A stretch of 64,000 bases of DNA from Sulfitobacter sp. 20_GPM-1509m (lineage in GTDB: Bacteria > Pseudomonadota > Alphaproteobacteria > Rhodobacterales > Rhodobacteraceae). Shown piece by piece: positions 3,317 to 33,866 of this stretch (position 1 is the stretch's first letter; the number at the start of each line of letters is the position of its first letter). The stretch covers positions 1-64,000 of the forward strand of contig NZ_JIBC01000010.1 in NCBI RefSeq assembly GCF_000620505.1, in the 5' to 3' direction. The notes under the pieces were generated by a model, which made no database searches, was not told the DNA's origin, and saw nothing but the letters and a program-made list of their open reading frames with translations. Both the position numbers and the translations under genes were made by a program.

Positions 3317-4519
3317 TCAGGTCAGCCTTCCGGAAAAGGCTTTTTGTAATAGGGATTGGCGGAGGTCGGCGAGGTCGGCGAGTTTGGTTTCGTATTGTGC
3401 AGTGAGTTCGTCTCTTAAAGCAAAAGCTGCTTCGCACTTTTCGGAAATCACATCTTGATCATCAAATGACGGGGGAATGTGAAGCGGAATCTTCTTGAGC
3501 AGACTTGCCTTGATCCCCGTCACTGTCGCACCAGTTCCTTTATCTCTAATATCCTGTTGCATCTGCGGCGACAGCAACGACCATTTTAGAAATCGCGGTA
3601 ATATCTCGTTGCTATCTGTCTGCATGGTTATAAGCCTCTGGCCAATTACTACCTTTTCGGCGGTATCCAATTCAGCAACGTTGGCCAAGGGCGCTTCTGT
3701 TGTAAAGAGCACATCCCCCATTTGGGGAAATCCGCGCGTCATCCAATCATCGTATGCGCTCTCCAATATGAACTCGCGCGGTTCTTTCTTAATATAGCCC
3801 ATGCGCACGTTCTTCGCAGTAATCAGACGAACACCCGTCTCTCGTTTTGGTGGGGTTTTGCCTCGATAGTCGATGAAGCGAACACGCTTGTTCAGATCTT
3901 CAGAATGCCAAGAAGCCCGATCCTCAAAAAGCTGTCCAATTGTTGCCCTATACAACTCCTCCGCATCCGCCAGATTGGCCTCTGCATGGCCGCGGGCGCG
4001 GTTGAGGGCGGTGAAGGCCTGATCGAGCTTCGTCACGATCCGCTTCTGCTCCTCCAGAGGGGGGAGGGGGATTTTATGTTGCAGAACTTGCTTGTCTGTT
4101 ACGGCTGGATAGCTGGCTCCCGACTGCAACTCAGCCATCTGATCCATAAACTCTGGTCGGAACAGAGCGTAGAACAGAAAGCGAGGTTCGATAAGCTTGG
4201 ATGGTTTCAATACGATGTAGCCCGTACTGCATACCTCACCATCCAAATGTTTGGGAACCTGCGCAATTCGCATAAGAGTTGGTCTGATGGTTGCAAAGAT
4301 AATATCATCTTTGCTGACCAATCGACGGGCTCGGCTCGGGGCTTCGTTCCCTGTAAGTTCCTGCGTTGCCTCGATGGTGTAGGTCAGATTTGAGACACTT
4401 GAAACGTCTATATAATTAAACGACTTTTCCGGCGATTTCCTTGGGTCAATAGTCTGCATCTTATCGCAAACGTCGGCAAGATTAACTTCACGCCAAGTGG
4501 TCGCCACCCCGTCCTTCAC
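3317..4519 (-). CDS. hsdS: Type I restriction enzyme, S (DNA specificity) subunit
   Basis: 400 aa. It recognises the bipartite DNA target for both the methylase and the nuclease complexes. Two target-recognition domains are visible, about residues 8-150 and 205-345. Each is followed by a conserved helical spacer, the first with PLPPLEEQKRIVTKLDQ near 151-167 and the second at about 345-400 with LADLRQSLLQKAFSGRL. The start is the GTG at 4519, whose last bases overlap the hsdM stop (GTGA), a normal coupled arrangement. A much longer open frame upstream is the antisense-free shadow of hsdM in another frame and was discarded. The recognition domains look more AT-rich than hsdM and hsdR, as is usual for these exchanged modules. 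Confidence 0.93.
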   Translation of the reverse strand: MKDGVATTWREVNLADVCDKMQTIDPRKSPEKSFNYIDVSSVSNLTYTIEATQELTGNEAPSRARRLVSKDDIIFATIRPTLMRIAQVPKHLDGEVCSTGYIVLKPSKLIEPRFLFYALFRPEFMDQMAELQSGASYPAVTDKQVLQHKIPLPPLEEQKRIVTKLDQAFTALNRARGHAEANLADAEELYRATIGQLFEDRASWHSEDLNKRVRFIDYRGKTPPKRETGVRLITAKNVRMGYIKKEPREFILESAYDDWMTRGFPQMGDVLFTTEAPLANVAELDTAEKVVIGQRLITMQTDSNEILPRFLKWSLLSPQMQQDIRDKGTGATVTGIKASLLKKIPLHIPPSFDDQDVISEKCEAAFALRDELTAQYETKLADLADLRQSLLQKAFSGRLT

Positions 4520-5964
4520 AACATCCCCCTGATCTCTTCCAGTATCCCCGCCGTTTCCGCATCCCTCGCCAGCATATCCTCGATGATCTGCGCGGGCGTG
4601 CGCAGGGCCTCGGCCTCGGGTGCGTTGGGGTTCTTTACTGACAGATCCCATGTGTCGCGGTCCAGCCCCGCCACGGGGACTGACCAGCTTTGCGCGCTGT
4701 CGGCTTTCTCCGGTTGCAGGGCGATGAACTCCGCCAGATCGGCGTCGTTCAGAGGGTTGGTTTTTCCGAGGTTGCGCCCGGGATCGAGCTGGTAATACCA
4801 CACGTCGCGCGTCGGTTTGCCCTTGTCGAAAAACAGCACCACCGTCTTGACCCCCGCGCCCTGAAACGTGCCGCCGGGGCAGTCGAGCACGGTGTGCAGG
4901 TTGCAGGTCTCCAGCAGTTCCTTGCGCAGGGCGACGCTGGCCTGATCGGTATTGCTCAGGAAGGTGTTCTTGATGACGATGGCGCCGCGCCCGCCCGCGC
5001 GCAACTTGCGCATGAAGTGTTGCAGGAACAGATAGGCCGTCTCGCCCGATTTGATCGGGAAGTTCTGCTGAACCTCCTTGCGCTCGCCACCGCCGAAGGG
5101 GGGATTGGCCAGCACGATGTCGTGGCGGTCGGCCTCCTGAATATCCATCACATTCTCGGTCAGCGTGTTGGCGTGGCGGATGGAGGGCGCGTCGATGCCG
5201 TGCAGGATCATGTTCATGACGCCCAGCACGTAGGCGAGGGATTTCTTTTCCTGCCCGTAAAAGGTGCGCCGCTGGAGCGTATTCCAGTCGGAGGCGGACA
5301 GATTGTCGGTACGCAGGTGGTCCCACGCCTCGCACAGGAAGCCGGCGGAGCCGCAGGCGCCGTCATAGATCGTCTCTCCCACCTGCGGGTCGACAACCTT
5401 GATCATGGCGCGGATCAGGGGGCGGGGCGTGTAGTATTCGCCGCCGTTGCGGCCGGCGTTTCCCATCTTCTTGATCCGCGTCTCGTAGAGGTCGGACAGT
5501 TCGTGCTTGGCCTCGGACGAGCCGAAGTTCAGGGTATCGATGATGTCGAGCGCGTCACGCAGGGAATAGCCGGAGCGGAACTTGTTGATGATTTCCGAGA
5601 AGATCTGCCCGATCTTGTAGTCGATCGTGTCCGGGTCTTCGGCGGTTTCGCGGAACTTCTTGAGGTATGGGAAGAGGTCGCCGTTGACGAAGGTGATGAG
5701 ATCCTCGCCGGTCATGGCGGCGTTGTGGTCAAGCTTGCCATCGACTTTGGGTGCGGCCCACTTCTGCCAGCGGTAGTCCGGGGCGAGGATGGGGGTGTAG
5801 TCCTGGCCCTCAAGCTCCGCATTGTCCTGCCGTTCGGACTCCAGATCGTCGAGATATTTCAGGAACAGCAGCCAAGATGTCTGTTCGGCATAGTCGAGTT
5901 CGGACGCCAGCCCTTCGTCGTTGCGAAGTACACGGTCTATGTTGTTGAAAGCATTTTCGAACAT
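4516..5964 (-). CDS. hsdM: Type I restriction-modification N6-adenine methyltransferase, M subunit
   Basis: 482 aa. It methylates adenine in the target chosen by HsdS, protecting host DNA. The start ATG at 5964 (MFENAFNNIDRVLRNDEG) is preceded by an AGAGGGG ribosome site; an upstream in-frame start would add 17 unlikely residues. The N-terminal helical HsdM_N domain covers about 1-150. GEYYTPRPL at 175-183, SAM-binding motif I DGACGSAGF at 201-209 and catalytic NPPF at 287-290 mark the N6_Mtase domain. It is the first gene of the leftward hsd operon and overlaps hsdS by four bases. The gene looks complete and active. Confidence 0.95.
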   Translation of the reverse strand: MFENAFNNIDRVLRNDEGLASELDYAEQTSWLLFLKYLDDLESERQDNAELEGQDYTPILAPDYRWQKWAAPKVDGKLDHNAAMTGEDLITFVNGDLFPYLKKFRETAEDPDTIDYKIGQIFSEIINKFRSGYSLRDALDIIDTLNFGSSEAKHELSDLYETRIKKMGNAGRNGGEYYTPRPLIRAMIKVVDPQVGETIYDGACGSAGFLCEAWDHLRTDNLSASDWNTLQRRTFYGQEKKSLAYVLGVMNMILHGIDAPSIRHANTLTENVMDIQEADRHDIVLANPPFGGGERKEVQQNFPIKSGETAYLFLQHFMRKLRAGGRGAIVIKNTFLSNTDQASVALRKELLETCNLHTVLDCPGGTFQGAGVKTVVLFFDKGKPTRDVWYYQLDPGRNLGKTNPLNDADLAEFIALQPEKADSAQSWSVPVAGLDRDTWDLSVKNPNAPEAEALRTPAQIIEDMLARDAETAGILEEIRGML

Positions 5965-6694
5965 TGCTGCCCCTCTTTTTTCCGCGAGAGTAGTCGGAAG
6001 GTGCGGAGGCAGCAATCAAACTCTGCTCTCGCGTAGCGTTCACAGGAATTTGAATACTCTTTAAGGTAGAGAAAGGACCGGATCAGCCATACATCTGATA
6101 TCTTCAAAGTGTTTGGCGAACCCCAGAAAATCGCTCTCTCAAGGGGGGGGTATCCTAAAAACTCAGCCGTCTGACATAGGACCGGCGGGGGAACATTTCT
6201 TTTCGTGCGCTCGAAATTGGAGAAAAAAGCCCAATGGGAAAGCCGTTAGGACCAAGAAAAGGGATGTCTTTATGAAAGGACGCCCACCGAATGTTGGCAG
6301 CTTGCTGAAGCAAACGGCCCAAACCGGACTTCCATCGTTTGATCGCACACCGCGTTACAGCATTCCTAAACGACAGGGAGGATAGCTCCTAATCCAATTG
6401 ACGTCGCGATGCGCCATATTGCAGTTGCCTGTCACTGCTACGCGGCCCACCTCGGTCGCATCATTGCCGATCTTCCCGTCAAACTTGAGCAAACCGGGAA
6501 TGACGCCGGACCGGAAATTGGATTTCCTCGTGTAACGTCCACGATCAAAGCCGATGGATTAAGCCGCACATCTGAGGGGATGCCGTCGGGCGCATCGAAA
6601 TCACATTGGAAGTCATGCAGGTTCGACAAGCCAGATTGGCTTGATCATATTGTTACGGCACTACGAATGAATCGGCATTATTAGGAACATCTCC
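5965..6694. other. 730-base gap between the hsd operon and the ynj-like set
   Basis: No convincing gene. The hsd promoter should lie at its left end. A rightward frame at 6113-6385 starts from TTG, runs through a tract of eight G at 6143-6150 and contains PSDIGPAGEHFFS, reminiscent of the start of small PD-(D/E)xK-type proteins, but then continues as uninformative basic sequence. I read this as a possible decayed gene rather than a functional one. Base composition is less GC-rich than in the flanking housekeeping genes, in keeping with the edge of an accessory island. Confidence 0.4.
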
Positions 6695-7303
6695 ATGCTT
6701 GACAGCAGACTGCGCCCTTTGATCGATCCGGCATTGAATCGCATGGGACAGCGTATCGCCGAGCGTAATATATCGGCAAATGCGATCACACTGACAGGTC
6801 TGGGATTCGGGTTTCTGGCTGCCATGGTGATCTGGCTCGGGTTGCCCATATGGGCGCTGATCCCGCTACTGGCGAGCCGTTTAGCAGATGGACTGGACGG
6901 TGCCGTCGCGCGAGCGACGCAGAAAACGGATTTTGGTGGATATCTTGATATTGCCGCCGACTTTTTGTTTTATGGGATGGTTCCGTTGGCGTTTGTTTTG
7001 GCAGATCCTTCGGCGAACGGGGCTGCGGGCGCGTTTTTGTTGGTGTCGTTCTATTTTAACGGAACAAGCTTTCTGGGGTATGCCATTCTTGCCCAAAAGC
7101 GCGGCCATCAAACGACGGATCAAGGAGAGAAGTCGCTCTATTATTCCAACGGGATTCTTGAGGGTACCGAAACGATCGTTTTTTTCGTCCTGTTATGCCT
7201 GTTTTCGACCTACTTCTCGCCAATGGCTTGGGTGTTTGGGGTTTTGTGCTTTTTGACCGCCGGGTTGCGGATCTACGCAGCCTCCCACATCTACTCTAAA
7301 TAA
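6695..7303 (+). CDS. CDP-alcohol phosphatidyltransferase family membrane protein (YnjF-like)
   Basis: 202 aa, integral membrane. Members of this family transfer a phospho-alcohol from a CDP-alcohol to a second alcohol, as in phospholipid head-group synthesis. The catalytic signature is clear: D65-G-L-D68-G69 then A72-R73, G81, D85 and D89. The spacing between AR and the next Gly is one residue shorter than in PgsA. About six hydrophobic segments are seen. It is shorter than and distinct from PgsA and PssA and resembles Escherichia coli YnjF, whose gene also sits beside ynjBCD. Here it lies about 300 bases before a kinase-like gene and the YnjBCD importer. The substrate is unknown. Confidence 0.85.
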   Translation: MLDSRLRPLIDPALNRMGQRIAERNISANAITLTGLGFGFLAAMVIWLGLPIWALIPLLASRLADGLDGAVARATQKTDFGGYLDIAADFLFYGMVPLAFVLADPSANGAAGAFLLVSFYFNGTSFLGYAILAQKRGHQTTDQGEKSLYYSNGILEGTETIVFFVLLCLFSTYFSPMAWVFGVLCFLTAGLRIYAASHIYSK

Positions 7304-7494
7304 GGACCAATAGGTCTACGCGTGATCTAAATTTGGCGAGCAGCGCAGCGTCCTACTACTATCACGTAGACGTCAGACCCAAACAGGCAGTTCCCTTAAC
7401 CTGACAATACTGTGAGAGTACGCCGTTGTGCTTCCGGTTTCCGCTTTGGTTCGACATTGATTGACTATGTCTCAACGCAGCGCATCCGAGGTTC

Positions 7495-7617
7495 ATGTTG
7501 GAAAGCACTGACCACATTTTGAAGCGGGTCCGCGATTGGCCCCGACCGACTATGATCGGCCAAGATTTGGACCGTCTGCGCTATGAATGGCGGGCGGCGC
7601 GGCAGGGTTTTGAATGA
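7495..7617 (+). CDS. 40-aa ORF translationally coupled to the kinase-like gene
   Basis: ATG at 7495 with GAGG at 7488-7491, and TGA at 7615-7617 overlapping the ATG of the next gene (ATGA). The product begins MLESTDHILKRVRDWPRP and ends YEWRAARQGFE; it is charged, soluble and probably helical. The ribosome site is only three bases from the ATG, which weakens the case. It could be a small real protein, a leader ORF that couples translation, or the C-terminal remnant of a decayed gene (no in-frame extension beyond a TGA at 7462). The overlap with the downstream start is the main evidence for function. Confidence 0.45.
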   Translation: MLESTDHILKRVRDWPRPTMIGQDLDRLRYEWRAARQGFE

Positions 7618-8666
7618 ACACTTCTATGGCGAACGGACGTGGCACTTTGATCCCGGCTCTCTTGACGGCGTTGCAGGACATTGGCGTAGACCCCGGCAAC
7701 CTCGAACTCATGCCAGATACCGGTCTCGCACACGATCATGTGCGACTTGAAGGTACTGGATGGATCGCTCGGCTGCCGAAGCAGAGCCAGATGCAACTCG
7801 GTGCCGCTGAAAACCTAGCGTATCAGGCTGCCTGCTTCACCCGTGCGAGCGCATCCGGCCATGTCCCACCCCTGCACAAGGTACTGCCGCCATCGGATGC
7901 TTTGCCGCGGGGCGGGCTGGTGGTTCAAGAGATTTTCGGCCGCACCGCGCGTCTGCCTGAGGATTTGCCCGCGATTATGGCTGCGCTGGCTTCAATCCAC
8001 TCCCTACCGGTGCCGAAAGCACGTGCGCCACTGCTTGACCCCGCAGATCCATTGACCGATCTGCTGGAAGAAATTGAAGCACAGTCAGCGTATCTTCACG
8101 CCGCAGATGGCGATACGCAGGCGATCATAGAGCGCCATATTGATGTTCTGAGAGACGTGGCTAAAGCGGCGAACCGTCCGCCCCAGCGGCTCATTTCCTT
8201 TGATGCGCATCCGGGTAATTTTCTGATCACGCCCGATGGACATGCCGTGCTGGTGGACCTTGAAAAAGCCCGCTACAGCGCGCCGCCACTCGATCTGGCA
8301 CACGCGACGCTTTACACTTCGACGACTTGGGATGTCTCTACCCATGCAGTGCTGGCGCCCCAAGAAGTGTCAGACGCCTGCCATCATTGGCTAGGTTGCC
8401 TACCCGATAACGAACGCGTTGCATTCAAGCCCTGGATCCTGCCAATGCGCCGCGCCATGTGGCTTTGGTCGATGACCTGGTGTGCCAAGTGGCGCAGTCT
8501 TTCAGACCAAGATGTCAAGATGACCCAAGACGGAGAGGACTGGTCTGCGCGCAAAAGCGAGGCGGCGCTGATTGCCCACGTCAAAGGCCGCGTCGATCAC
8601 TATCTCGCACCTGAAACCGCAGCACGGATGGAAGCCGACTTAGCCTTTCTGACTGACATTATTTAA
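7614..8666 (+). CDS. APH/choline-kinase-like phosphotransferase
   Basis: 350 aa. Aminoglycoside phosphotransferase / choline kinase fold. The catalytic region is visible as LISFDAHPGNFL near residues 195-206, followed by the metal-binding VLVDLEKA; the usual HGD is replaced by FDA-H here, so the Brenner motif is atypical but Asp and Asn are retained. The N-lobe includes an ARLPK-type strand near 52-56. The gene begins inside the stop of the 40-aa ORF and is followed 26 bases later by the YnjB-like binding protein. Context suggests that it phosphorylates the imported compound, possibly an amino alcohol. Antibiotic resistance is unlikely given the operon. The substrate is not deducible from the sequence. 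Confidence 0.8.
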   Translation: MNTSMANGRGTLIPALLTALQDIGVDPGNLELMPDTGLAHDHVRLEGTGWIARLPKQSQMQLGAAENLAYQAACFTRASASGHVPPLHKVLPPSDALPRGGLVVQEIFGRTARLPEDLPAIMAALASIHSLPVPKARAPLLDPADPLTDLLEEIEAQSAYLHAADGDTQAIIERHIDVLRDVAKAANRPPQRLISFDAHPGNFLITPDGHAVLVDLEKARYSAPPLDLAHATLYTSTTWDVSTHAVLAPQEVSDACHHWLGCLPDNERVAFKPWILPMRRAMWLWSMTWCAKWRSLSDQDVKMTQDGEDWSARKSEAALIAHVKGRVDHYLAPETAARMEADLAFLTDII

Positions 8667-8692
8667 TGAAGGCCTAACAAGGAGACAGACAT

Positions 8693-9910
8693 ATGATCAG
8701 ACACATGCTTACATCACTTGCGGCGGTTGCGATTGCAGTACCACTGGCCGCTCAGGAGGTTATGCCTGACCCCAAGGCCTGGGGTGACGTCACCGCTGCT
8801 GCAGAAGGCCAGACTGTTTATTGGCACGCCTGGGGCGGATCAAATTCAGTGAACGAATTTATCGCCTGGGCCGGAGATCAAGTTCAAGAGACTTACGGCA
8901 TCACGGTCGAGCATGTGAAGCTGAAGGACACTGCCGATGCTGTCAGCCGTGTGATCGCCGAGAAATCGGCAGGCAAGGATGCCGGCGGGGCGGTCGATCT
9001 CATCTGGATCAACGGCGAGAATTTTGCGGCCATGAAGGATCAGGGGCTACTCTTCGGCCCTTGGGCAGAAAGCCTGCCGAACTGGGAATTTATCGATGTC
9101 GAGGGCAAGCCTGCCGTGAAGTCCGACTTCACCGTTCCGACAGAGGGGCTGGAAGCGCCCTGGGGCATGGCGCAGATCATCTTTTACCACGATAGTTCGC
9201 GCCTTGACATACCACCGCGTTCGATCCCCGCGCTGCGTGACTGGGCGCAAGATAATCCGGGCCGCTTTGCCTATCCGCAGCCACCAGATTTCCTCGGCTC
9301 AACCTTTCTCAAGCAGGTAGTGCTCGAACTTGCACCCGACCCGTCGGTACTGAGCGAACCGGTGAACGAAGCAAATTACGTAGCTGCCACCACTCCGCTC
9401 TGGGAATATCTTGACGACCTCACGCCAAATCTTTGGCGCGGTGGCGCAGCCTATCCACAGTCCGGGGCACGGCTTGTCCAGCTGATGAATGATGGCGAGA
9501 TCGACCTGGCGCTCAGCTTCAATCCCAATGAACCTTCGAACGCCATTGCCAACTTCGAACTGCCAGACACCGTGCGCACCTATGTGCTTGAGGGTGGCAC
9601 AATCGGCAACGCCAGCTTTGTTGCGATCCCCTATAATGCCAATGCAAAGGAGGGCGCGCTGGTGCTTGCGAATTTCCTGATGTCCGCAGAAGCTCAGGCG
9701 CGTAAATCCGACCCGGCAGTCTGGGGGGATGGCACAGTACTGGCGCTGGACAAGCTGAATGCAGAGGATCGCGCTAAATTTGATGCGATCGCGCTTGGTG
9801 TGGCGACGCTTGCGCCCGAGGAGCTGGGACAATCTTTGCCCGAACCACATCCCTCGTGGATGGTGAGGCTCGAAGAAGATTGGACCGCGCGCTACGGCGT
9901 CGGTCAATAG
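8693..9910 (+). CDS. ynjB: YnjB-like periplasmic substrate-binding protein of an ABC importer
   Basis: 405 aa with a Sec signal peptide (about residues 1-20, ending PLAAQ). A GGAGA ribosome site precedes the ATG. The mature part is a two-lobe extracellular solute-binding fold; the stretch DLIWINGENFAAMKDQGLL at about 100-118 is characteristic of the YnjB family. It should capture the ligand in the periplasm and deliver it to the YnjC/YnjD complex encoded next. The family ligand has not been established to my knowledge; relatives of the fold bind thiamine, polyamines or sugars. Spacing from the kinase gene is 26 bases, so co-transcription is likely. Confidence 0.87.
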   Translation: MIRHMLTSLAAVAIAVPLAAQEVMPDPKAWGDVTAAAEGQTVYWHAWGGSNSVNEFIAWAGDQVQETYGITVEHVKLKDTADAVSRVIAEKSAGKDAGGAVDLIWINGENFAAMKDQGLLFGPWAESLPNWEFIDVEGKPAVKSDFTVPTEGLEAPWGMAQIIFYHDSSRLDIPPRSIPALRDWAQDNPGRFAYPQPPDFLGSTFLKQVVLELAPDPSVLSEPVNEANYVAATTPLWEYLDDLTPNLWRGGAAYPQSGARLVQLMNDGEIDLALSFNPNEPSNAIANFELPDTVRTYVLEGGTIGNASFVAIPYNANAKEGALVLANFLMSAEAQARKSDPAVWGDGTVLALDKLNAEDRAKFDAIALGVATLAPEELGQSLPEPHPSWMVRLEEDWTARYGVGQ

Positions 9911-9915
9911 ACCGC

Positions 9916-11655
9916 GTGCGCGCGACAGTTAACACTACCGTTCCGCCGCGCTCTGCGCGGCGGGCTTGGTTCCTGCCTTGGGCGCCGCTCTTGGCATTGG
10001 GCGTGATGCTGGGACCGGTATTGGCCGGCCTTTTGGGCACTCTTGCACCGGCTTTTGGCTATATGCCCGCCCTCGGCGGCACGACGTTCAGCCTCAATGC
10101 GTTTGAAGCGCTTTTTGCGTGGCCCGGCCTGTCAAGTGCCGTGGGGCTCAGCCTCGGTGTGGGGCTCGCATCGACGGCTCTTTCGCTCGCTATCGTCACT
10201 TTGATTTGCGCCGGATGGGCCGACACGCGCACCTTCGCCATGGTCGAGCGGCTGTTGTCGCCGCTTCTGTCGGTTCCGCATGCAGCAGCAGCGTTTGGTC
10301 TGGCTTTTCTGATTGCGCCCTCGGGCTGGATCGCACGCGGTCTGTCGCCATGGGCCACCGGCTGGGAGCAGCCGCCCGATTTGCTGATCCTTCAGGACCC
10401 GGCCGGTCTTAGCCTTATCTTTGGGCTGGTTACGAAGGAGGTGCCGTTCCTTCTGCTGATGACTCTTGCCGCACTCTCGCAGGTGCGCGCCGGCCAAAGC
10501 CTGCGGGTGGCGCAGGCATTGGGCTATTCGCGGGTGTCAGGCTGGCTAAAAACGGTTTTTCCGCTGATCTATCGCCAGATCAGATTGCCCGTCTACGCGG
10601 TTCTGGCGTTCTCCATGTCCGTCGTTGATGTGGCGATCATCCTTGGCCCCAACACCCCGTCGACATTGGCGGTGCAGGTGGTGCGTTGGATGAACGATCC
10701 CGACCTTGCGTTGCGCTTTCAGGCAGCAGCGGGCGCCGTGCTGCAACTGGGCTTGGTGATTGCCGGACTTGGCCTGTGGCGGGGTCTCGAGATGGCTGTC
10801 GCAGGCATCGGCAGACGTTGGACTGCGTCTGGCGCGCGTGGGCACCGTGTGTTCGATCAGGGGGTCCGCGGCCTTGCGTTGGGCCTTGGCGCCGTAGCAG
10901 CGATCGCGGTGATTGCAGGGCTGGCAGGACAAGTTGCATGGTCCTTTGCAGGGCTCTGGCAGTTTCCCGATCTGCTCCCCGATGGGTTCACGTTTCGCAA
11001 CTGGCAACGCCACGGTGCGCGCCTTGCGGGTCCAGGCCTTGAGACGCTGACCATCGCTGCACTTTCAACGGGGCTTGCTCTCTTGCTGACGCTCGCGTGT
11101 CTGGAAGCAGAGCATCGCCACGGCCTCAGGCCCGCCACCCGTGCGTTGTGGCTGCTTTATTTGCCTTTGATCGTGCCCCAGATTGCTTTTCTTGCGGGAT
11201 TTCAGACCCTTTCCATCAGCACCGGTGTGGATGGCGGGCGCATGGCAGTAACGCTGGCACATCTGGTCTTTGTGCTGCCATATGTCTTCCTTGCGCTGGC
11301 AGATCCTTGGCGGGCTTGGGATGCGCGGCAGGATACTGTGGCGCGCGCACTTGGCGCTGGCCCGGATCGCGTATTGTGGATGGTGCGACTGCCGATGCTG
11401 CTTCGCCCTGTATTGACCGCAGCAGCGGTCGGGTTTGCCGTATCCGTGGGGCAATATCTGCCAACGCTGCTGGTAGGCGCAGGCAGGGTGCCTACGCTCA
11501 CGACTGAAGCGATCGCGCTGGCTTCTGGCGGGGATCGTCGTGTGATCGGTGTCTATGCGTTGGCGCAAATGGGGGCGGCCTTTGCGCCTTTTGCCCTCGC
11601 CGTTCTGCTGCCGCGATTGATCTGGCGCAACAGGAAAGGATTACTGAATGGATGA
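9916..11655 (+). CDS. ynjC: YnjC-like ABC transporter permease, two fused membrane domains
   Basis: About 579 aa if started at the GTG 9916, five bases after the ynjB stop; an ATG at 9856 inside ynjB is the alternative, and neither has a strong ribosome site. There are roughly twelve membrane segments in two homologous halves. Each half carries an EAA-type coupling loop: RVAQALGYSRVSGWLKTVFP near 200 and VARALGAGPDRVLWMVRLP near 495 (GTG-start numbering). A single-chain double permease needs only one YnjD-type ATPase dimer. The stop overlaps the ynjD start by eight bases. The start is the least certain point. Confidence 0.82.
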   Translation: MRATVNTTVPPRSARRAWFLPWAPLLALGVMLGPVLAGLLGTLAPAFGYMPALGGTTFSLNAFEALFAWPGLSSAVGLSLGVGLASTALSLAIVTLICAGWADTRTFAMVERLLSPLLSVPHAAAAFGLAFLIAPSGWIARGLSPWATGWEQPPDLLILQDPAGLSLIFGLVTKEVPFLLLMTLAALSQVRAGQSLRVAQALGYSRVSGWLKTVFPLIYRQIRLPVYAVLAFSMSVVDVAIILGPNTPSTLAVQVVRWMNDPDLALRFQAAAGAVLQLGLVIAGLGLWRGLEMAVAGIGRRWTASGARGHRVFDQGVRGLALGLGAVAAIAVIAGLAGQVAWSFAGLWQFPDLLPDGFTFRNWQRHGARLAGPGLETLTIAALSTGLALLLTLACLEAEHRHGLRPATRALWLLYLPLIVPQIAFLAGFQTLSISTGVDGGRMAVTLAHLVFVLPYVFLALADPWRAWDARQDTVARALGAGPDRVLWMVRLPMLLRPVLTAAAVGFAVSVGQYLPTLLVGAGRVPTLTTEAIALASGGDRRVIGVYALAQMGAAFAPFALAVLLPRLIWRNRKGLLNG

Positions 11656-12298
11656 TGGAGCAGCGCCCAGTCTTGGTCTGCGGCTGGAGCAGGTGGCGAT
11701 CTCTTTGGGAAGTGTAAGGCTGATGGCGCTCGATTGCACCATCGGCCCCGGCGAGGTGATGACAGTGATGGGACCGTCCGGTTCAGGAAAGTCGACGCTT
11801 TTGGCGGCGATCACCGGCACGCTGGACCCTGCCTTTGCCATGAGAGGGCGCATCAAGCTAAATGGCCGGGATTTGGCAGGGTTGCCCACCGAGGCGCGCG
11901 AAGTGGGGATCCTTTTTCAGGACGAATATCTTTTCCCGCACATGTCGGTCGGGGCCAATCTCGCCTTTGGCCTTAAGCCCGGGGTGAAAAGGAGGGGCGC
12001 CCGACGGGCAAAGATTGAAGACGCGCTTGCCGAGGTTGAGCTTTCAGGATTTGCCGATCGTGACCCGGCGACTCTTTCGGGTGGACAACGGGCACGGGTA
12101 GCGTTGCAACGGATGCTTTTATCTGAGCCGCGCGCACTGCTCTTGGACGAGGCGTTTTCCAAGCTTGATACTGGGTTGCGCGCGCAGGTCCGAGAGTTGG
12201 TGTTTGAAACCGCTCGCCAGCGAGGCTTGCCTGTTTTGCAAGTGACTCATGACCACTCCGATGCGGACGCAGCAGAAGGCGAAATTGTCCACTTGTGA
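11648..12298 (+). CDS. ynjD: YnjD-like ABC transporter ATPase
   Basis: 216 aa, a minimal nucleotide-binding subunit. Walker A GPSGSGKST at about 42-50, Q-loop ILFQDEYLFPHMS near 87, signature LSGGQRAR near 143, Walker B ALLLDEAFSKLD near 163-174 and switch His in VTHDHSD near 199 are all intact. It drives import through the YnjC-like permease, overlaps it by eight bases and is the last gene of the rightward set. A convergent response-regulator gene ends 109 bases on, and I see no strong terminator between them. Confidence 0.92.
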   Translation: MDDGAAPSLGLRLEQVAISLGSVRLMALDCTIGPGEVMTVMGPSGSGKSTLLAAITGTLDPAFAMRGRIKLNGRDLAGLPTEAREVGILFQDEYLFPHMSVGANLAFGLKPGVKRRGARRAKIEDALAEVELSGFADRDPATLSGGQRARVALQRMLLSEPRALLLDEAFSKLDTGLRAQVRELVFETARQRGLPVLQVTHDHSDADAAEGEIVHL

Positions 12299-12406
12299 AA
12301 TTACATCGCCAGTGTTTCCGTCGTAACCAATTGAACTGAAATAAAAGGTGCTGACCTCAGCGATTCAGGTTTTGTTAAAAGTGCTTTAAAGCCAATCAGG
12401 TGGCGG

Positions 12407-13372
12407 CTACTTCCGGATCATCCGACTTTCGGCGCGCGCAATCGCACGATCAAAAATGTCCCACGCAGGTTGCTTGCTGTTGACCCGTGCAACAACCGGA
12501 TTACCAATCGACACATTCAGATCCATAGGGTTTCCGTTGTCAAATTTGATGTTTTTTTCATCAAGAGCTTTCTTGACTTCTACCTCGAGTTCAGCTGCGC
12601 GCACATCAATCTTTCTGCCTTGCACAATCACATACCGTCCAGACCCAGCATATGCCATCATATTGCTATGGTCCGGAAAAACCACACAGAGCGCTTCCCC
12701 AACCTCGCGTAGGGCGAATAAGAACCCCTGCGTTGATGCCCTTTCATGTATCATTTGAATGTCGTTTATCTTCAATGCAACCACTTGAGTTGCACCCAGT
12801 GCGGCGGTTGACAGCTGCGACAGATAATTTTCCAAGGCCTTGTAACTTATGAAGTTGGGAAGTCCTGTGATCAAATCCTTTTCGGAAAGCACAGCTTTTA
12901 GATCCTCTCGTGCGGACGACGCTGCAAGCATTTCGGAATACGCTGTGAGATTAACTTTTGCGCTGCGCAACCGGACACCAAGTTCGCTGATATGGAAAGG
13001 CTTTGTGACATAATCTGTTGCACCCGCACCAAAAGCACGGTCGACATAATCTCGTTCAGTCATCGATGTCAGCATGATAATAGGTGTTTGCCGATAGGCC
13101 GGAAGGGCCCGAACAAGGCCGCACAAGGCTATGCCGTCCAAGTCCGGCATATTAATATCTAGCAGCAAACAATCATACGTGACCGCGCCACTTCTTATCA
13201 TTTTCAGTGCATCTGAACTGGAGCTAATCGTCGTCACGTCATCAAATCCAAGCCGACCGGCAAGCACGGCCAACAAGTCAAGCGTCATTCGGTTATCATC
13301 AACTGCCAAAATTTTCACGGCACCATAGATCCATGCTTTGGTATATATTGGGCTATCCGTAAGTATGTGCAT
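12407..13372 (-). CDS. Response regulator with a degenerate GGDEF domain
   Basis: 321 aa from the ATG at 13372; a GTG at 13318 (VKILAVDDNRM) is an equally credible start and neither has a clear ribosome site. The receiver domain (about 19-135) has acidic D25-D26, phospho-acceptor D72, T102 and K124. A helical linker leads to a GGDEF-type fold starting ITGLPNFISYKALENYL near 168, but the active-site loop reads AGSGRYV at about 242-248 instead of GG(D/E)EF. Diguanylate cyclase activity is therefore unlikely; it may bind a nucleotide or a partner. No cognate kinase is adjacent. Base composition is visibly more AT-rich than in the neighbours, suggesting a separate origin. Confidence 0.85.
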   Translation of the reverse strand: MHILTDSPIYTKAWIYGAVKILAVDDNRMTLDLLAVLAGRLGFDDVTTISSSSDALKMIRSGAVTYDCLLLDINMPDLDGIALCGLVRALPAYRQTPIIMLTSMTERDYVDRAFGAGATDYVTKPFHISELGVRLRSAKVNLTAYSEMLAASSAREDLKAVLSEKDLITGLPNFISYKALENYLSQLSTAALGATQVVALKINDIQMIHERASTQGFLFALREVGEALCVVFPDHSNMMAYAGSGRYVIVQGRKIDVRAAELEVEVKKALDEKNIKFDNGNPMDLNVSIGNPVVARVNSKQPAWDIFDRAIARAESRMIRK

Positions 13373-28545: not shown

Positions 28546-28748
28546 CGTTCAATGGTCTGGAATTTTCAAGACTGTTTCCGTAAATGAAAATGTGCCGCAT
28601 TTCGTTGCGGCAACTAAGGCAAATTTACGTGATCTTGGACCAAAATATGGCCAATCCCCATATACTTCCCGGAATTGTAGGTTAATACATCTTTAAGACG
28701 AGCGTGGGGGCGCGACGTCTAATGATTCAGCTTTGGGAAACCGCTGCC

Positions 28749-30830
28749 ATGACCGTGATCAATGGGACAAATAACAACGACACTCTTCAGGGTGGCGCTG
28801 GTGACGACTCGATTTCAGGCCTGAACGGCCAGGACCGCATCTCGGGCGAGGGCGGCAACGACTATATCTCGGGCGGTGACGGGAACGACACGCTTTTCGG
28901 GGACGCAGGCGAAGGCACAGCCCCCGGCAAGGACGCCTCTGCGCTGTCTTTGCGCAGCGAGAACGTGGTGTCGCAAACCTATTACGGAAACAATGCCAGC
29001 GCGGGCGACTCTGCGATTTACAGCAATGTTGCGACATTGGCGGACGGCACTCCGATCTCGGGTCGTCTGGTTCTGGTGTCGAAATCCGACCACAAGCTTT
29101 CGGTCGATCTGACCGGTGGCCGTGGTTCAGAAATTCTGCTGAACAATCAGTATGTCAGCTCGGGCAAGGGCGACACCGCCACATTCCGGTTCGAGTTTTT
29201 CAACCCCGCAACAGGTCAGCCTGTGGCGCTGAACTCGGTCGCGACGTTCAACGACCTCGACAAGAACGGCACCGGCGACCAAGAAGCGGTGACGCTGCAA
29301 GCGTCCAGTTTCTCGGCCTTTGGCGTGGCGTCAAATTCCGTTCTGAACGTCCAGACCACATCGACGACGGTCAAGGCGATCGGTAGCGGTAACAACGACC
29401 CCGAGGATCAAGAAGCTTGGTTTAGCGCCCAGTTTGAAAACCGGACGTTCATTGAATTTACACTGGAATCGCGCAGCACACAGTCGGGCTTTACCTTCTC
29501 GGGCGACCTGATCGACGACGCGATTGTCACCCCCATCGTGGCGGGCAACGACACCATCGACGGTGGCGCAGGCAACGATGTGATCTTTGGCCAGGGCGGC
29601 AATGACGTGCTGTATGGCGGCAGCGGCAACGACTATGTCGACGGCGGCGAAGGCAACGACCTGCTGGATGGCGGTCAGGGTCAGGATACGCTGATCGGTG
29701 GCGCGGGCAACGACACGATGTCCGGCGGAGAGGGCGATGACTCTCTTGATGGCGGCGAAGACAATGACGTGATGGATGGCGGTCAGGGTCAGGATAGGCT
29801 GATCGGCGGCGCGGGCAACGACATGATGTCTGGCGGCGACGGTGACGATATTCTCGATGGCGGCGAAGGCAACGACCTTCTGGACGGTGGTCAGGGTCAG
29901 GATACGCTGATTGGCGGCGCGGGCAACGATACGTTGATCGGCGGCACCGGCGACGACACAATGACCGGCGGTGACGGCCAGGATCTGTTTGTGATGGGCA
30001 AGGACCATGACAGCGCCAGCGGCGGGTTTGGCAGTGATCGCTTTACCTTTGACGGCATCAACGGCGGCACCATTGTCGGCGGCGAGGATGCGGATGGCAA
30101 AGATATCGACGTGATCGACCTGACCGGCGTGCGCGCCAAGGTCTATTCCGACGGGCCGGGTTCGGAATCCGGCCGGATCGATTTTTACGACGAGCATGGC
30201 AACATTTCGGGTCGCACCAACTATTCCGAGATCGAACAGATCATCATGTGCTTTACTCCCGGCACCATGATCGCCACGGACAAGGGCGAGGTGGCCGTCG
30301 AGGCATTGAAACCGGGTATGCGGGTGTTCACCCGTGACAATGGTCTGCAAAAACTGCGGTGGGCAGGGCGGCGCGATTTGACCCGTGCGGAACTGGCTGC
30401 AAATCCGACCTTTAACCCCGTGCTGATCCGCCAGGGTGCCTTGGGGCGTGGCTTGCCTGACCGCGACATGCTGGTCAGCCCGAACCACCGGATGCTGATC
30501 ACTTCGGATCTGGCGGCCGTGATGTTCGACGACCGCGAGGTGCTGGTCGCGGCCAAGCACCTGACAATGATGGATGGCGTGGACGTGGTCGAGGCGGACA
30601 GCGTCAGCTATATCCACCTGATGTTCGACCACCACGAGGTGATCCTGGGCGACGGCACATGGACCGAAAGCTTTCAGCCCGGTGACATGTCACTGCGCGG
30701 TATCGGATCAGAGCAACGTCAGGAAATCCTGTCGCTGTTCCCCGAGCTTGAGACGGTTCAAGGTTTGGAAGACTACACTTCGGCCCGCCGGTCGCTGCGG
30801 TCCTTCGAGGCGCGTTCGCTCTTGGGTTAA
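28749..30830 (+). CDS. RTX calcium-binding protein with C-terminal Hint domain
   Basis: 693 aa from the ATG at 28749 ([20 protein letters not shown]); an in-frame ATG at 28722 is an alternative. RTX repeats cover about 5-55, a non-repetitive beta-rich domain about 60-265, and a second RTX array about 265-430 with highly regular GGxGND units. The Hint domain begins at C501 ([20 protein letters not shown]), with SPNHRMLI, and extends to about 640. The tail ends [17 protein letters not shown], clearly homologous to the tail of the giant upstream protein. No signal peptide; type I export is inferred from the RTX repeats, but no HlyB/HlyD genes are present. Its stop overlaps the stop of the convergent MobA-like gene by two bases. 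Confidence 0.87.
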
Positions 30831-31435
30831 TCCCTGAGCGCGCGCCAGTTGGCCCAATCCTCGGGCGTGTCCAGATCATTGCGCGCGCGGTTGCCTGACA
30901 GGGCAATCCGCGCGACGCGATGTCCGGCGGATTTGACAATCGACTGGCCGCCGTGATCGCCGGTCAGCTTTGCAAACTGTGCGAACAACGGCTTTGCAAA
31001 TACGATGGGATGCCCGTCGCGCCCGTCCGCAGTTGTTCCGCGCCAGATCAGTATTTCTGTACTCAAGTCAACGGCTTGGATCACGTTATTCAAGTCATCC
31101 TCCGTCAGATCGGGCAAGTCGCCCAACAGCAAAAGCGCGGCCTTTGCAGTCTTGGGCAATGCCGCAAAGGCCGTGCGCAGCGATGCACCCATTCCTTCGG
31201 CCGCATCTGCAACCGGCACCGGTGTCACGTCCAGCCCCGAGATTGCCGTATAACGGTCGTGAGGCGCGGGCGGCAGTGCCACGAAGACCCGTTCGCAGAC
31301 CTGACGCGCGATCCGGCATTGCCGCCGGATCAGCGGCTCGCCATCCACGTCCTGCATAAGCTTGTCCGCGCCGCGCATCCGCGACGATTGCCCGGCGGCA
31401 AGGACGATGGCAGGGATATGTTCGAGCGCACACAT
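30827..31435 (-). CDS. MobA/MocA-like nucleotidyltransferase
   Basis: 202 aa from the ATG at 31435, preceded by GGTGGG; a longer frame to 31480 is less likely. The nucleotide-binding signature [16 protein letters not shown] lies near residues 10-25, with a later [11 protein letters not shown] metal-site motif and NDLDTPEDW near the end. Proteins of this family attach CMP or GMP to molybdopterin or act on related sugars and alcohols. The MocA subgroup, which makes molybdopterin cytosine dinucleotide for xanthine/CO dehydrogenase-type enzymes, is the closest by motif, but no molybdoenzyme gene lies nearby. The gene is 13 bases downstream of the DMGDH-like gene on the same strand and could be co-transcribed. 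Confidence 0.8.
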
Positions 31436-31448
31436 TGGCCCACCATAC

Positions 31449-33866
31449 TCAGCCACGCATCCGTGCGCCATCGGCATCAAAGGGTGGCGTCAGCGTGACG
31501 GTGGCGGGGCGCATCTGGCCGAGGATTTCGATTTCGACCTTCAGCCCGTCCGACACGGCCTGTCTGGGCAGGAAACCTTGGGCGATTGAGGTGCCCGTGT
31601 GGTGCGAATAGCCGCCCGAGGTACAAAAGCCCACAACCTCGCCGTCCAGCCAGATCGGCTCGTAGCCGTGCACGTCAGCGTCATCCGCATCGACCGCAAG
31701 AGCAACCAGCCTGCGTGTGGTCCCCCGGACGCGTTCAGCTTCGGCGGCGGCACGGCCGATGAATTCCGTGCCCTTTTTGAAGTCGATAAAGCGATCCAGC
31801 CCCGTCTCGGCGGCGGTGTAATCGGGTGAAAATTCGGCCATCCAGCTGCCGAAATGCTTGTCCAGCCGCAGCGACATCATCGCGCGCATTCCAAAGGGGA
31901 CCATGCCGTGCGGCTGACCCGCGGCCCACAGGGTCCACCACAGCGCACGCTGGCCCATCGGATCGCAGTAAACTTCATAGCCCAGATCGCCGGTGTAGCT
32001 GACCCGCTGCACGATACAGTCGGTCATGCCAACGGTCATGCGGCGGACATCGCGAAACTTCAGGTCCGAAATATCGGTGCGCGTGCATGCGGCCAGAACC
32101 GCGCGCGCCATTGGCCCTGCGATCTGGAACCCTGTGCGCGTGTCACTGATGTTTTCGACATGAACACCATCTTCCAAGTGACTGGAAAACCATCTGAAAT
32201 GATAATTCTGGCTGCCGTAGGAGGCCGTCAGCTGAAACTCTTCCGCGCCCAGGCAGGATATGGTGAAATCTCCGATCAGCTTGCCCTTGTCCGACAGCAT
32301 CGGTGTCAGCGACAGCCGCCCCGGTTGCGGCACGCGGCCTGCCATGATCCGGTCCAGCCTTGCCCGCGCGCGCGGACCTGTGACGCGGTATTTGCCAAAG
32401 TTTTGCACTTCGTTGATGCCAACACCGCCGCGCACGCCGCGAACCTCGCGCGCGGTCGCGTCAAAAGCGTCCGAACGGCGGAAGGACGGCGTTTCAAAGG
32501 ACGGCTCGCCGTCCTGGGCAAAATAGTTCACCACCTCAAGCCCGTATTGCTGGCCCCAGACCGCACCCATGTCGGAAAAAATGTCATACATCGGCGTGGT
32601 GCGGTTGGGACGCGCGGCGGGCAGTTCTTCGTTGGGATAGCTGACGGAAAACCGCTTCTGATAGTTCTCGATGACCTTGGGCAGCGTGTATCCGGGGCTG
32701 ATCCAGTCGCCAAAGCGGGCCACGTCCATGGCCATCACGTCACGTTCCGGCTCGCCTTCGATCATCCATTGCGCCAGCGTCAACCCGACGCCGCCGCCTT
32801 GGGAAAAGCCCGCCATGACGCCGCAGGCGGACCAGTAATTGCGCACGCCGGGCACCGGGCCGACCAGCGGATTGCCATCGGGGGCGAAGGTAAACGGCCC
32901 GTGGATCACCGATTTGACGCCTGCGGTCTCCAGCGCCGGAAAGCGCTTGTAGGCAAAGGCGATGCTGTCCTCGATCTTGTCGAAATCATCGGGCAACAGT
33001 TCGTGGCCAAAGGTCCACGGCGTGCCGTTCACCGCCCAGGGGCGGCAACGCTGTTCATAAAACCCGATGCACAGTCCGCGTCCTTCCTGCCGCAGATAGC
33101 TTTCGCCGGCCGGGTCCATGACATGAGGGTGTTCGCCGCCCGCGTTCACGATGTCGGCGATCATCGGCACCTCTTCGGTGACGATATACTGGTGCTCCAT
33201 CGGGTGCAGGGGGAAATAGATGCCCGCCATCGCGCCCACTTCGCGCGCCCACAACCCGCCCGCGTTGACGATGTGCTCGGCATGGATCGTGCCCTGATCG
33301 GTCACCACATCCCAGGTGCCGTCGGGGCGTTGGTTGGTTTCGGTGACCATCGTGTGTGTCTGGATCGTGGCCCCGCCCATCCGCGCGGCCTTGGCATAGG
33401 CGTGGGTGGTGCCCGAGGGGTCAAGGTGGCCGTCGAGGGGGTCGTAAAGCCCGCCAATGATGCCGTCGATATTGGTTACGGGGGCAATCCTGGCGATCTC
33501 GTCGGGCGTGACGATCTCGGTCTCCAGCCCCATGAAACGATGCTTGGCCCGTTCCGCCAGCAGCATGTCGAACCGATCCCGATTGTCGGCCAGCGTAATG
33601 CCGCCCACATGGTGCAGGCCGCAGGACATTCCGGTGATCGCTTCCAACTCTTTGTACAGGCGGATCGTATAACCCTGAAGCGCGGCCATATTGGTGTCGC
33701 CGTTCAGTGTGTGAAATCCGCCCGCCGCGTGCCACGTGCTGCCCGAGGTCAGCTCTGACCGTTCGATCAGCATCACGTCGGACCAGCCGAGTTTCGTCAG
33801 GTGGTAGAGCACGGATGCGCCGACTACGCCTCCACCGATGACGGCAACGCGGGTGGTGGTTTGCAT
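31449..33866 (-). CDS. Dimethylglycine/sarcosine dehydrogenase-like FAD protein with GcvT domain
   Basis: 805 aa. An N-terminal DAO-type FAD domain starts VAVIGGGVVGASVLYHL (GxGxxG at about 10-16), and STWHAAG holds H46, the position that carries covalent FAD in dimethylglycine dehydrogenase. The C-terminal half from about residue 430 is the aminomethyltransferase (GcvT) folate-binding domain, which captures the released one-carbon unit on tetrahydrofolate. Likely substrates are N-methylated glycines from betaine breakdown, important for marine roseobacters. It is divergent from a paralogue at 34133 of nearly identical length and layout. The exact substrate cannot be read from the sequence. 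Confidence 0.88.
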   Translation of the reverse strand: MQTTTRVAVIGGGVVGASVLYHLTKLGWSDVMLIERSELTSGSTWHAAGGFHTLNGDTNMAALQGYTIRLYKELEAITGMSCGLHHVGGITLADNRDRFDMLLAERAKHRFMGLETEIVTPDEIARIAPVTNIDGIIGGLYDPLDGHLDPSGTTHAYAKAARMGGATIQTHTMVTETNQRPDGTWDVVTDQGTIHAEHIVNAGGLWAREVGAMAGIYFPLHPMEHQYIVTEEVPMIADIVNAGGEHPHVMDPAGESYLRQEGRGLCIGFYEQRCRPWAVNGTPWTFGHELLPDDFDKIEDSIAFAYKRFPALETAGVKSVIHGPFTFAPDGNPLVGPVPGVRNYWSACGVMAGFSQGGGVGLTLAQWMIEGEPERDVMAMDVARFGDWISPGYTLPKVIENYQKRFSVSYPNEELPAARPNRTTPMYDIFSDMGAVWGQQYGLEVVNYFAQDGEPSFETPSFRRSDAFDATAREVRGVRGGVGINEVQNFGKYRVTGPRARARLDRIMAGRVPQPGRLSLTPMLSDKGKLIGDFTISCLGAEEFQLTASYGSQNYHFRWFSSHLEDGVHVENISDTRTGFQIAGPMARAVLAACTRTDISDLKFRDVRRMTVGMTDCIVQRVSYTGDLGYEVYCDPMGQRALWWTLWAAGQPHGMVPFGMRAMMSLRLDKHFGSWMAEFSPDYTAAETGLDRFIDFKKGTEFIGRAAAEAERVRGTTRRLVALAVDADDADVHGYEPIWLDGEVVGFCTSGGYSHHTGTSIAQGFLPRQAVSDGLKVEIEILGQMRPATVTLTPPFDADGARMRG

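Follow-up and report, generated by a model that had tools for sequence, protein, structure and literature searches.

The subject of this analysis is a locus of five genes at positions 6695–12298 of a 64,000-nucleotide stretch of DNA (positions 1–64,000 of contig NZ_JIBC01000010.1 of Sulfitobacter sp. 20_GPM-1509m; this whole stretch is called the window below), which encodes a YnjF-like cytidine diphosphate (CDP)-alcohol phosphotransferase, a kinase of the APH/choline-kinase fold and the three components of the ABC importer YnjBCD. The link between the kinase and YnjBCD is real and extends across alpha-, beta- and gammaproteobacteria; the kinase and the importer seem to belong together more often than accident allows and to share two further partners, the families TIGR04283 and TIGR04282. 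The genes suggest a sequence of import, phosphorylation, nucleotidyl activation and transfer that follows the logic of the lic1 pathway, with the kinase and YnjBCD as the uptake and phosphorylation half; we assign this reading a probability of about 0.4.

A profile scan of genome contigs identified 225 relatives of the kinase, and the best 80 of them were taken as the sample of kinase loci. YnjB or YnjC was found in 52 of the 80 loci (22 betaproteobacterial, 17 alphaproteobacterial, 12 gammaproteobacterial and one unplaced), the commonest genera being Halomonas (10 loci), Hydrogenophaga (nine) and Roseovarius (seven), and in 40 loci the kinase lies at most 1.2 kb from YnjB or YnjC. Counted by family, YnjB was present in 48 of the 80 stretches, YnjC in 51, TIGR04283 in 52 and TIGR04282 in 51, while a VTT-FAD oxidoreductase (23), a nucleoside hydrolase (19), YnjF (13) and a radical SAM protein (13) were rarer partners. 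TIGR04283 or TIGR04282 occurred in 54 loci, 33 loci had these families along with YnjB or YnjC, and at least one of the two sets was found in 73. In 43 loci the stretch reached 6 kb or more to either side of the kinase: 32 of them had YnjB or YnjC, 31 had TIGR04283 or TIGR04282, 23 had both sets, 40 had either one, and three (L117, L124 and L137) had neither.

The order of the genes varies: radical SAM–kinase–YnjBCD in Roseovarius; kinase–YnjBCD, followed at a distance by the glycosyltransferase (TIGR04283) and the nucleotidyltransferase-like gene (TIGR04282), in Halomonas; and, in Burkholderiales, glycosyltransferase–nucleotidyltransferase–YnjBCD–kinase as well as kinase–glycosyltransferase...YnjF–YnjD–YnjC(–YnjB) in reverse. 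The kinase, YnjBCD and their partners therefore do not represent one inherited block. On the YnjB tree (a quick tree without bootstraps), linkage to the kinase needs eight changes, at least four of them forced by starred branches.

In the class to which the window's organism belongs, the kinase was found in 31 of 289 genomes. TIGR04283 was present in 21 of these 31 versus 88 of the 258 genomes without the kinase, TIGR04282 in 23 versus 83, and YnjB in 15 versus 34; in 16 of the 31, no more than 5 kb separates the kinase from TIGR04283. There was no overall association of YnjB with TIGR04282 in the class (17 of 49 versus 89 of 240 genomes); among the genomes harboring YnjB, TIGR04282 accompanied 13 of the 15 with the kinase and four of the 34 without it. 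All nine genomes with the best-scoring kinases, including that of the window, had YnjB, versus six of the 22 others.

The kinase is a member of the APH family with an intact predicted active site. It had no Pfam match of its own; four of five scanned relatives matched PF01636 (APH) at 41–51 bits (cut-off 23.2), and the fifth (L073) did not match. Its predicted model (predicted local distance difference test, pLDDT, 95.4) is nearest to APH(2'')-IVa, the top match, and to choline kinases, with homoserine kinase also among the matches. The catalytic residues D197, N202 and D215 plus E217 are conserved in all 76 aligned kinases and correspond by spacing to D176, N181, D194 and E196, which are given as catalytic residues of LicA (PMC4364537). 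That the protein is a small-molecule kinase, as had been proposed in the preliminary description, is plausible, given its fold, its catalytic residues and the APH matches of its relatives.

The same source describes for LicA-type choline kinases the motif ID(FWY)E(YF)x3Nx3(FYW)Dx6E and a choline pocket formed by aromatic residues and Glu (PMC4364537). Neither the choline/ethanolamine kinase motif nor the pocket was present in the 76 aligned kinases, in which the places were matched by counting residues from the invariant D and E: the place of LicA Tyr197 (choline cage) is occupied by K or R in all 76, that of Glu213, which meets the ammonium, by Y in 65, and that of the motif Asn by G or S in 71. 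Counterparts of two pocket tryptophans of LicA are possibly among W283, W285 and W289. For the choline kinase family PF01633, the highest score among relatives was 21.5 bits, short of the cut-off of 29, and its search of the window's genome did not report the kinase; the only NCBIfam match of the kinase was ThiK (TIGR02721), which at 16.3 bits versus a cut-off of 299.45 gives no membership in that family. Because the pocket residues differ from the choline-kinase signature, choline and ethanolamine are disfavoured as substrates, and the predicted pocket would permit anionic or neutral ones. The amino alcohol that the preliminary description had considered as cargo was rejected as the leading idea on these motif and pocket counts; judging by the pocket, choline is an improbable cargo, and an anionic or neutral one may be imported.

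Thirty-five kinases whose stretches include YnjB or YnjC all share five residues (F196, R220, M282, W285 and K292), and 19 kinases taken from a distant part of the class search have none of them at the same places, all 19 carrying R at position 285. These residues appear to mark a kinase subtype rather than importer linkage itself, because W285 occurs in 57 of the 76 aligned kinases and hence also in 22 rows outside the YnjB/C-linked list. A second subtype, found in 17 fetched loci, lies in a conserved alphaproteobacterial block of a uracil-DNA glycosylase family protein, SLT, MoaB, the kinase, a PA0069-family radical SAM protein, RNase HII and CcrM (families annotated from one representative each), with MoaB in 14 of the 17 loci and TIGR04283 or TIGR04282 in nine. 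It looks as if the kinase with TIGR04282 and TIGR04283 were the wider association, which YnjBCD joins mainly in one subtype.

The partner family TIGR04283 consists of GT2 glycosyltransferases and TIGR04282 (DUF2064) of CofC-like proteins, the scanned representatives scoring above the NCBIfam cut-offs; the scanned Rhodoferax representative (L118), whose cluster occurs in 17 loci, is a fusion of the glycosyltransferase with TIGR04282. Among solved structures, TIGR04282 is related to 3cgx, a putative nucleotide-sugar transferase (7.5e-18), and it resembles CofC of the F420 pathway, with a match to a 3-phospho-D-glycerate guanylyltransferase of known structure (7p97; E = 0.0027); unlike F420 CofC, TIGR04282 proteins score below the cut-offs of the CofC models and adjoin a GT2 glycosyltransferase and often an APH-type kinase. 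The preliminary description had noted that the locus lacks a cytidylyltransferase, which would have to lie elsewhere, and had named a MobA-like protein at 30827–31480 of the window as one possible, unlinked candidate. The first of these ideas agrees with the presence of a TIGR04282-like member in the gene set, which by family and linkage is the better candidate for the missing enzyme, while the MobA-like protein was rejected as a partner of the kinase, as it is unlinked and is matched best by molybdenum-cofactor models under their cut-offs (the best being TIGR03310, molybdenum cofactor cytidylyltransferase, with 104.7 bits versus 186.45).

An unnamed radical SAM/SPASM family of about 355 amino acids adjoins the kinase or YnjBC in 14 loci and directly precedes the kinase in Roseovarius. 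The members scanned were below the NCBIfam cut-offs (L073 and L099) and below the Pfam Radical_SAM cut-off (L073, L099 and L187). The last of these loci, L187 on contig C45 of genome G204, contains YnjB–YnjC along with TIGR04283, a TIGR04282 match and a radical SAM gene. In the window's genome, a search without a positive control gave no match to one Roseovarius-type radical SAM query.

NCBIfam names both TIGR04282 and TIGR04283 arsenosugar enzymes. TIGR04167, which we take to be ArsS, reached its cut-off of 300 bits in none of the 31 kinase genomes, with weaker matches in all 31 (best 74.6 bits), as expected of radical SAM proteins generally; 14 of 14 control genomes also had matches, one of them above the cut-off. 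In G235 (C171), G347 (C83) and G427 (C2), a sub-cut-off TIGR04167 match (54–62 bits) lies within about 0.5 kb of TIGR04282 or TIGR04283, the kinase being on another contig.

We know of no cargo for the importer. YnjBCD has been called uncharacterized (PMC9207381), and the literature found for ynjBCD and its COG numbers, judged by the listings and one passage, does not name a substrate. The 50 best of 1054 fold matches of the YnjB model at E ≤ 0.001 include stm0429 (4r6y) and binders of iron, gamma-aminobutyrate, hexose phosphate, citrate and polyamines, and this comparison did not single out a ligand class.

In the proposed pathway YnjBCD, an importer by family, would bring in a small hydroxylated molecule; the kinase, whose catalytic residues are in place, would phosphorylate it as its presumed substrate; the CofC-like TIGR04282, judging by linkage and family, would attach a nucleotide to the phosphorylated product; and a membrane or glycan transferase would move the activated group on, most often the GT2 enzyme TIGR04283, with YnjF as a possible alternative end. 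The order of steps is that of lic1, which consists of the importer LicB, the choline kinase LicA, the cytidylyltransferase LicC and the LicD transferases (PMC4364537), with a kinase of the same fold in the second place; here the steps are deduced from sequence and gene context. The proposed pathway differs from lic1 in the YnjBCD-family importer, the CofC-like nucleotidyltransferase, the candidate enzyme for the final transfer, which is of the GT2 or CDP-alcohol type, and the kinase pocket devoid of the choline signature. Both partner sets are joined to the kinase in 33 of 80 loci, and TIGR04282 and TIGR04283 are unlinked in the window's genome.

Several observations weigh against this pathway. 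TIGR04282 (C3:293696–294247) and TIGR04283 (C4:23834–24481) are on separate contigs of the window's genome, with neither the kinase, the importer binding protein nor each other nearby, and they could be ordinary family copies, as TIGR04282 is present in 77 of 149 genomes of the window's family; for this organism the connection of the kinase with the two families would be made by analogy only. In the same family YnjB and TIGR04282 are nearly exclusive, TIGR04282 being found in three of 57 YnjB genomes versus 74 of 92 others. This exclusion is perhaps due to descent; it also implies that the importer does not generally need TIGR04282. Among the 31 kinase genomes of the class, for which the association counts given above ignore phylogeny, YnjB stands beside the kinase in just four (G000, G250, G260 and G355; the contigs of G250 and G355 are apparently those of L142 and L143 and are hence counted among the 80 loci), and six have neither YnjB nor TIGR04282 nor TIGR04283. 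The kinase was not detected in G204, which has YnjB–YnjC, the glycosyltransferase, TIGR04282 and the radical SAM gene. The distant kinase branch occurs in a housekeeping block, and the kinase thus has no fixed tie to import. Finally, the sample of 80 loci leans towards linkage with YnjBCD, since three of the six kinases in the query alignment were linked to it besides that of the window, and Hydrogenophaga and Halomonas are over-represented in it.

The features of the locus are listed in Table 1. The five genes had been described as sharing one orientation, the last four with short gaps or overlaps, and the ORF list of the window bears this out in coordinates and strands; the kinase, YnjB, YnjC and YnjD form a tight run (7614–12298), from which YnjF is set apart upstream. 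The kinase and YnjB are separated by 26 bp, and YnjC and YnjD overlap by 8 bp. YnjC has 599 amino acids and overlaps YnjB if it begins at the listed start 9856; with the in-frame GTG at 9916, which is the likelier start, it has 579 and follows YnjB after a gap of 5 bp. YnjB matched NF008633 at 557.7 bits (cut-off 203) and YnjD matched ABC_tran at 111.9 bits; the assignment to the YnjBCD importer relies on the YnjB model above its cut-off and on the genes for the permease and the ATPase, which follow YnjB immediately in the same orientation.

Table 1. Coordinates of the features in the window and the basis of their assignment.
Feature	Position	Strand	Basis or remark
YnjF-like class I CDP-alcohol phosphotransferase, 202 amino acids	6695–7303	+	PF01066, signature residues, profile relatives
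Gap between YnjF and the kinase, 310 bp	7304–7613		ORF coordinates, site search, comparison with fetched loci
Putative 40-codon ORF, stop overlapping the kinase start codon (ATGA)	7495–7617	+	Sequence
APH/choline-kinase-fold kinase, 350 amino acids; subtype including the YnjBCD-linked kinases	7614–8666	+	Model, alignment, PF01636 in relatives
YnjB periplasmic binding protein, 405 amino acids	8693–9910	+	NF008633; model pLDDT 92.7
YnjC permease, single long chain	9916–11655	+	Likelier start GTG 9916; longest ORF from 9856
YnjD ATPase, 216 amino acids	11648–12298	+	PF00005

A search for promoter-like or terminator-like sites gave none between YnjF and the kinase; this is compatible with their co-transcription without proving it. 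The gap matched neither the fetched loci nor 13 radical SAM proteins from kinase loci, of the type encoded directly before the kinase in Roseovarius, and a broken radical SAM gene inside it was rejected on the latter result. The 40-codon ORF had no relative among the loci fetched up to then. No Rfam family was matched in 6000–13000, hence no known riboswitch. Farther downstream, at 28704–30830, the window encodes a protein of 708 amino acids which, as read from its translation, has repeated Gly/Asp-rich repeats of the calcium-binding type and an apparent Hint-type domain at its end.

The kinase was found in one of 149 genomes of the window's family, its own, and in one of six of the genus, while YnjB is present in 57 of the 149. 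Thirty YnjB loci from these 57 genomes were fetched, including that of the window, leaving 27 genomes without a fetched locus; YnjF lies within approximately 1.5 kb of YnjB in 21 of the 30 (20 of the 29 others), on the opposite strand in three (L018, L020 and L031), and two of the YnjF-less loci end at a contig edge (L022 and L024). Three plasmid records of Rhodobacterales (L069, L070 and L071) carry an operon ynjF-ynjB-ynjC-ynjD on one strand, with YnjF first as in the window and, unlike the window, without the kinase, which is likewise absent from 148 of the 149 family genomes. In this family YnjF with YnjBCD is the usual set and the kinase an unusual addition; both the YnjF–YnjBCD neighbourhoods (20 of 29 loci) and the kinase–YnjBCD neighbourhoods (three classes) are more than chance. 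Four other plasmid loci, from enterobacteria and Paracoccaceae (L065, L066, L068 and L072), have YnjB with a VTT-FAD oxidoreductase fusion, three of them with YnjF and three with DUF692/DUF2282 genes; in the Salmonella record among them, the match to the permease breaks off next to an IS26.

These counts bear on the line drawn in the preliminary description from the importer through the kinase to a CDP-activated alcohol that YnjF would use for a phospholipid head group. Its first part, the kinase with YnjBCD, stands (52 of 80 loci), and the co-occurrence survey that had been suggested confirmed it, except in the nearest relatives. YnjF as the next step after the kinase is not supported: the co-occurrence of the two is weak (13 of 80 stretches), and in the family YnjF accompanies YnjBCD without this kinase. 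A head-group pathway agrees with the position of YnjF 310 bp upstream of the kinase in the window and with several loci of Burkholderiales, as well as L140, in which YnjF, the kinase, YnjBCD and the glycosyltransferase and nucleotidyltransferase genes are all neighbours. DedA and VTT proteins constitute one family of lipid-moving proteins, and a lipid product would fit both the VTT-domain proteins that three plasmids (L065, L068 and L072) carry together with YnjB and YnjF and the DedA-family YdjX and YdjZ that precede ynjABCD in Escherichia coli. The ydjXYZ-ynjABCD-ynjE region of E. coli K-12 likewise has YnjBCD, YnjF and DedA-family membrane proteins as neighbours; ynjBCD and ynjF are near each other there, as had been noted, but ynjF is on the opposite strand, beyond ynjE. 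Unlike the kinase loci, this 17-kb region contains no kinase, TIGR04282 or TIGR04283, and E. coli was not among the control genomes matching TIGR04283 or TIGR04282. The transfer of a CDP-alcohol to diacylglycerol also misfits the rule, stated in a structural paper, that characterized prokaryotic class I CDP-alcohol phosphotransferases all use a soluble acceptor (PMC4634129). We therefore consider the head-group pathway unlikely.

The kinase might also be accessory cargo, moved between genomes by horizontal transfer, that landed beside YnjBCD without a shared function; this too is improbable. Its rarity in the family and the genus would be explained, and just upstream of YnjF, at 4516–6015 on the minus strand, lies a gene resembling type I restriction-modification genes (weak hsdM score), which together with the patchy presence of the kinase indicates that the region may be an island. 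Against such an accident stand the tight operon spacing and the recurrence of the linkage in Rhodobacterales, Oceanospirillales and Burkholderiales.

YnjF could alternatively act by the chemistry of phosphatidylinositol phosphate (PIP) synthase, joining CDP-diacylglycerol to the cargo phosphorylated by the kinase, and therefore no cytidylyltransferase would be needed. The YnjF-like protein matched PF01066 at 38.3 bits (cut-off 22), and its D65, D68, G69, A72, R73, G81, D85 and D89, invariant in 14 aligned sequences, make up the CDP-alcohol phosphotransferase signature D1xxD2G1xxAR...G2xxxD3xxxD4. In profile comparison, AF2299 and bacterial PIP synthases come nearest to it among solved structures, and archaetidylinositol phosphate synthase heads the list of its curated models (65.4 bits, cut-off 180). 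All curated (NCBIfam) models, including those of PIP and archaetidylinositol phosphate synthases, were below their cut-offs, and the second and fourth in the list are archaetidylserine synthases (45.3 and 30.6 bits), which to our knowledge take no phosphorylated acceptor; DIPP synthase (35.2 bits) and PIP synthase (28.1 bits, cut-off 170) came lower in the list. PIP synthase has two phosphate-binding Arg residues, R153 and R191, and an RxxR motif tied to acceptor recognition (PMC4634129). R192 of YnjF, invariant in the 14 sequences, is a possible counterpart of one of the two Arg residues, as it lies opposite the C-terminal Arg of a mycobacterial PIP synthase, in an alignment stretch scoring about 0 bits, while no counterpart of RxxR was evident by eye, the presumed comparable stretch being occupied by invariant E156, G157, E159 and T160. 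As the linkage of the kinase to YnjF is weak besides, we regard this chemistry as quite unlikely.

Salvage of thiamine or another cofactor, with YnjBCD as a relative of ThiBPQ and the kinase as a relative of ThiK, would accord with ThiQ as the best NCBIfam model of YnjD (160.3 bits, cut-off 245) and with ThiK as the sole NCBIfam match of the kinase. It is very unlikely in view of the low ThiK score, the lack of a riboswitch match and the 50 best YnjB fold matches, among which no thiamine-binding protein is named, and it leaves the association with TIGR04282 and TIGR04283 unexplained. The arsenosugar pathway, suggested by the names under which both families exceed their cut-offs and by the sub-cut-off TIGR04167 matches near them, was put last as highly improbable, since the TIGR04167 cut-off was reached in none of the 31 kinase genomes and the neighbour clusters that were annotated, a minority of the small ones among them, yielded no recognisable arsenic gene.

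Returning to the sequence of import, phosphorylation, activation and transfer, we propose tentatively, and with a good deal of doubt, that YnjBCD, the kinase, TIGR04282, TIGR04283 and the radical SAM/SPASM protein constitute an undescribed salvage pathway in three proteobacterial classes, in which an anionic or neutral hydroxy-compound would end up in a membrane lipid or a glycan; it might be a hydroxy-acid such as glycerate, the substrates of CofC offering the analogy. Searches for TIGR04283 and for DUF2064 returned no literature, and no description of this gene set was found in the literature on the ynjBCD genes, TIGR04283 and DUF2064, judged by titles and openings of abstracts, with subscription journals mostly outside the search. 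If true, this would provide a function for the orphan transporter YnjBCD and a role for TIGR04282 and TIGR04283 outside arsenosugars. With YnjBCD tied to a single kinase family and a pair of transferase families, its cargo becomes a question for the bench, namely that of a substrate common to YnjB and the kinase.

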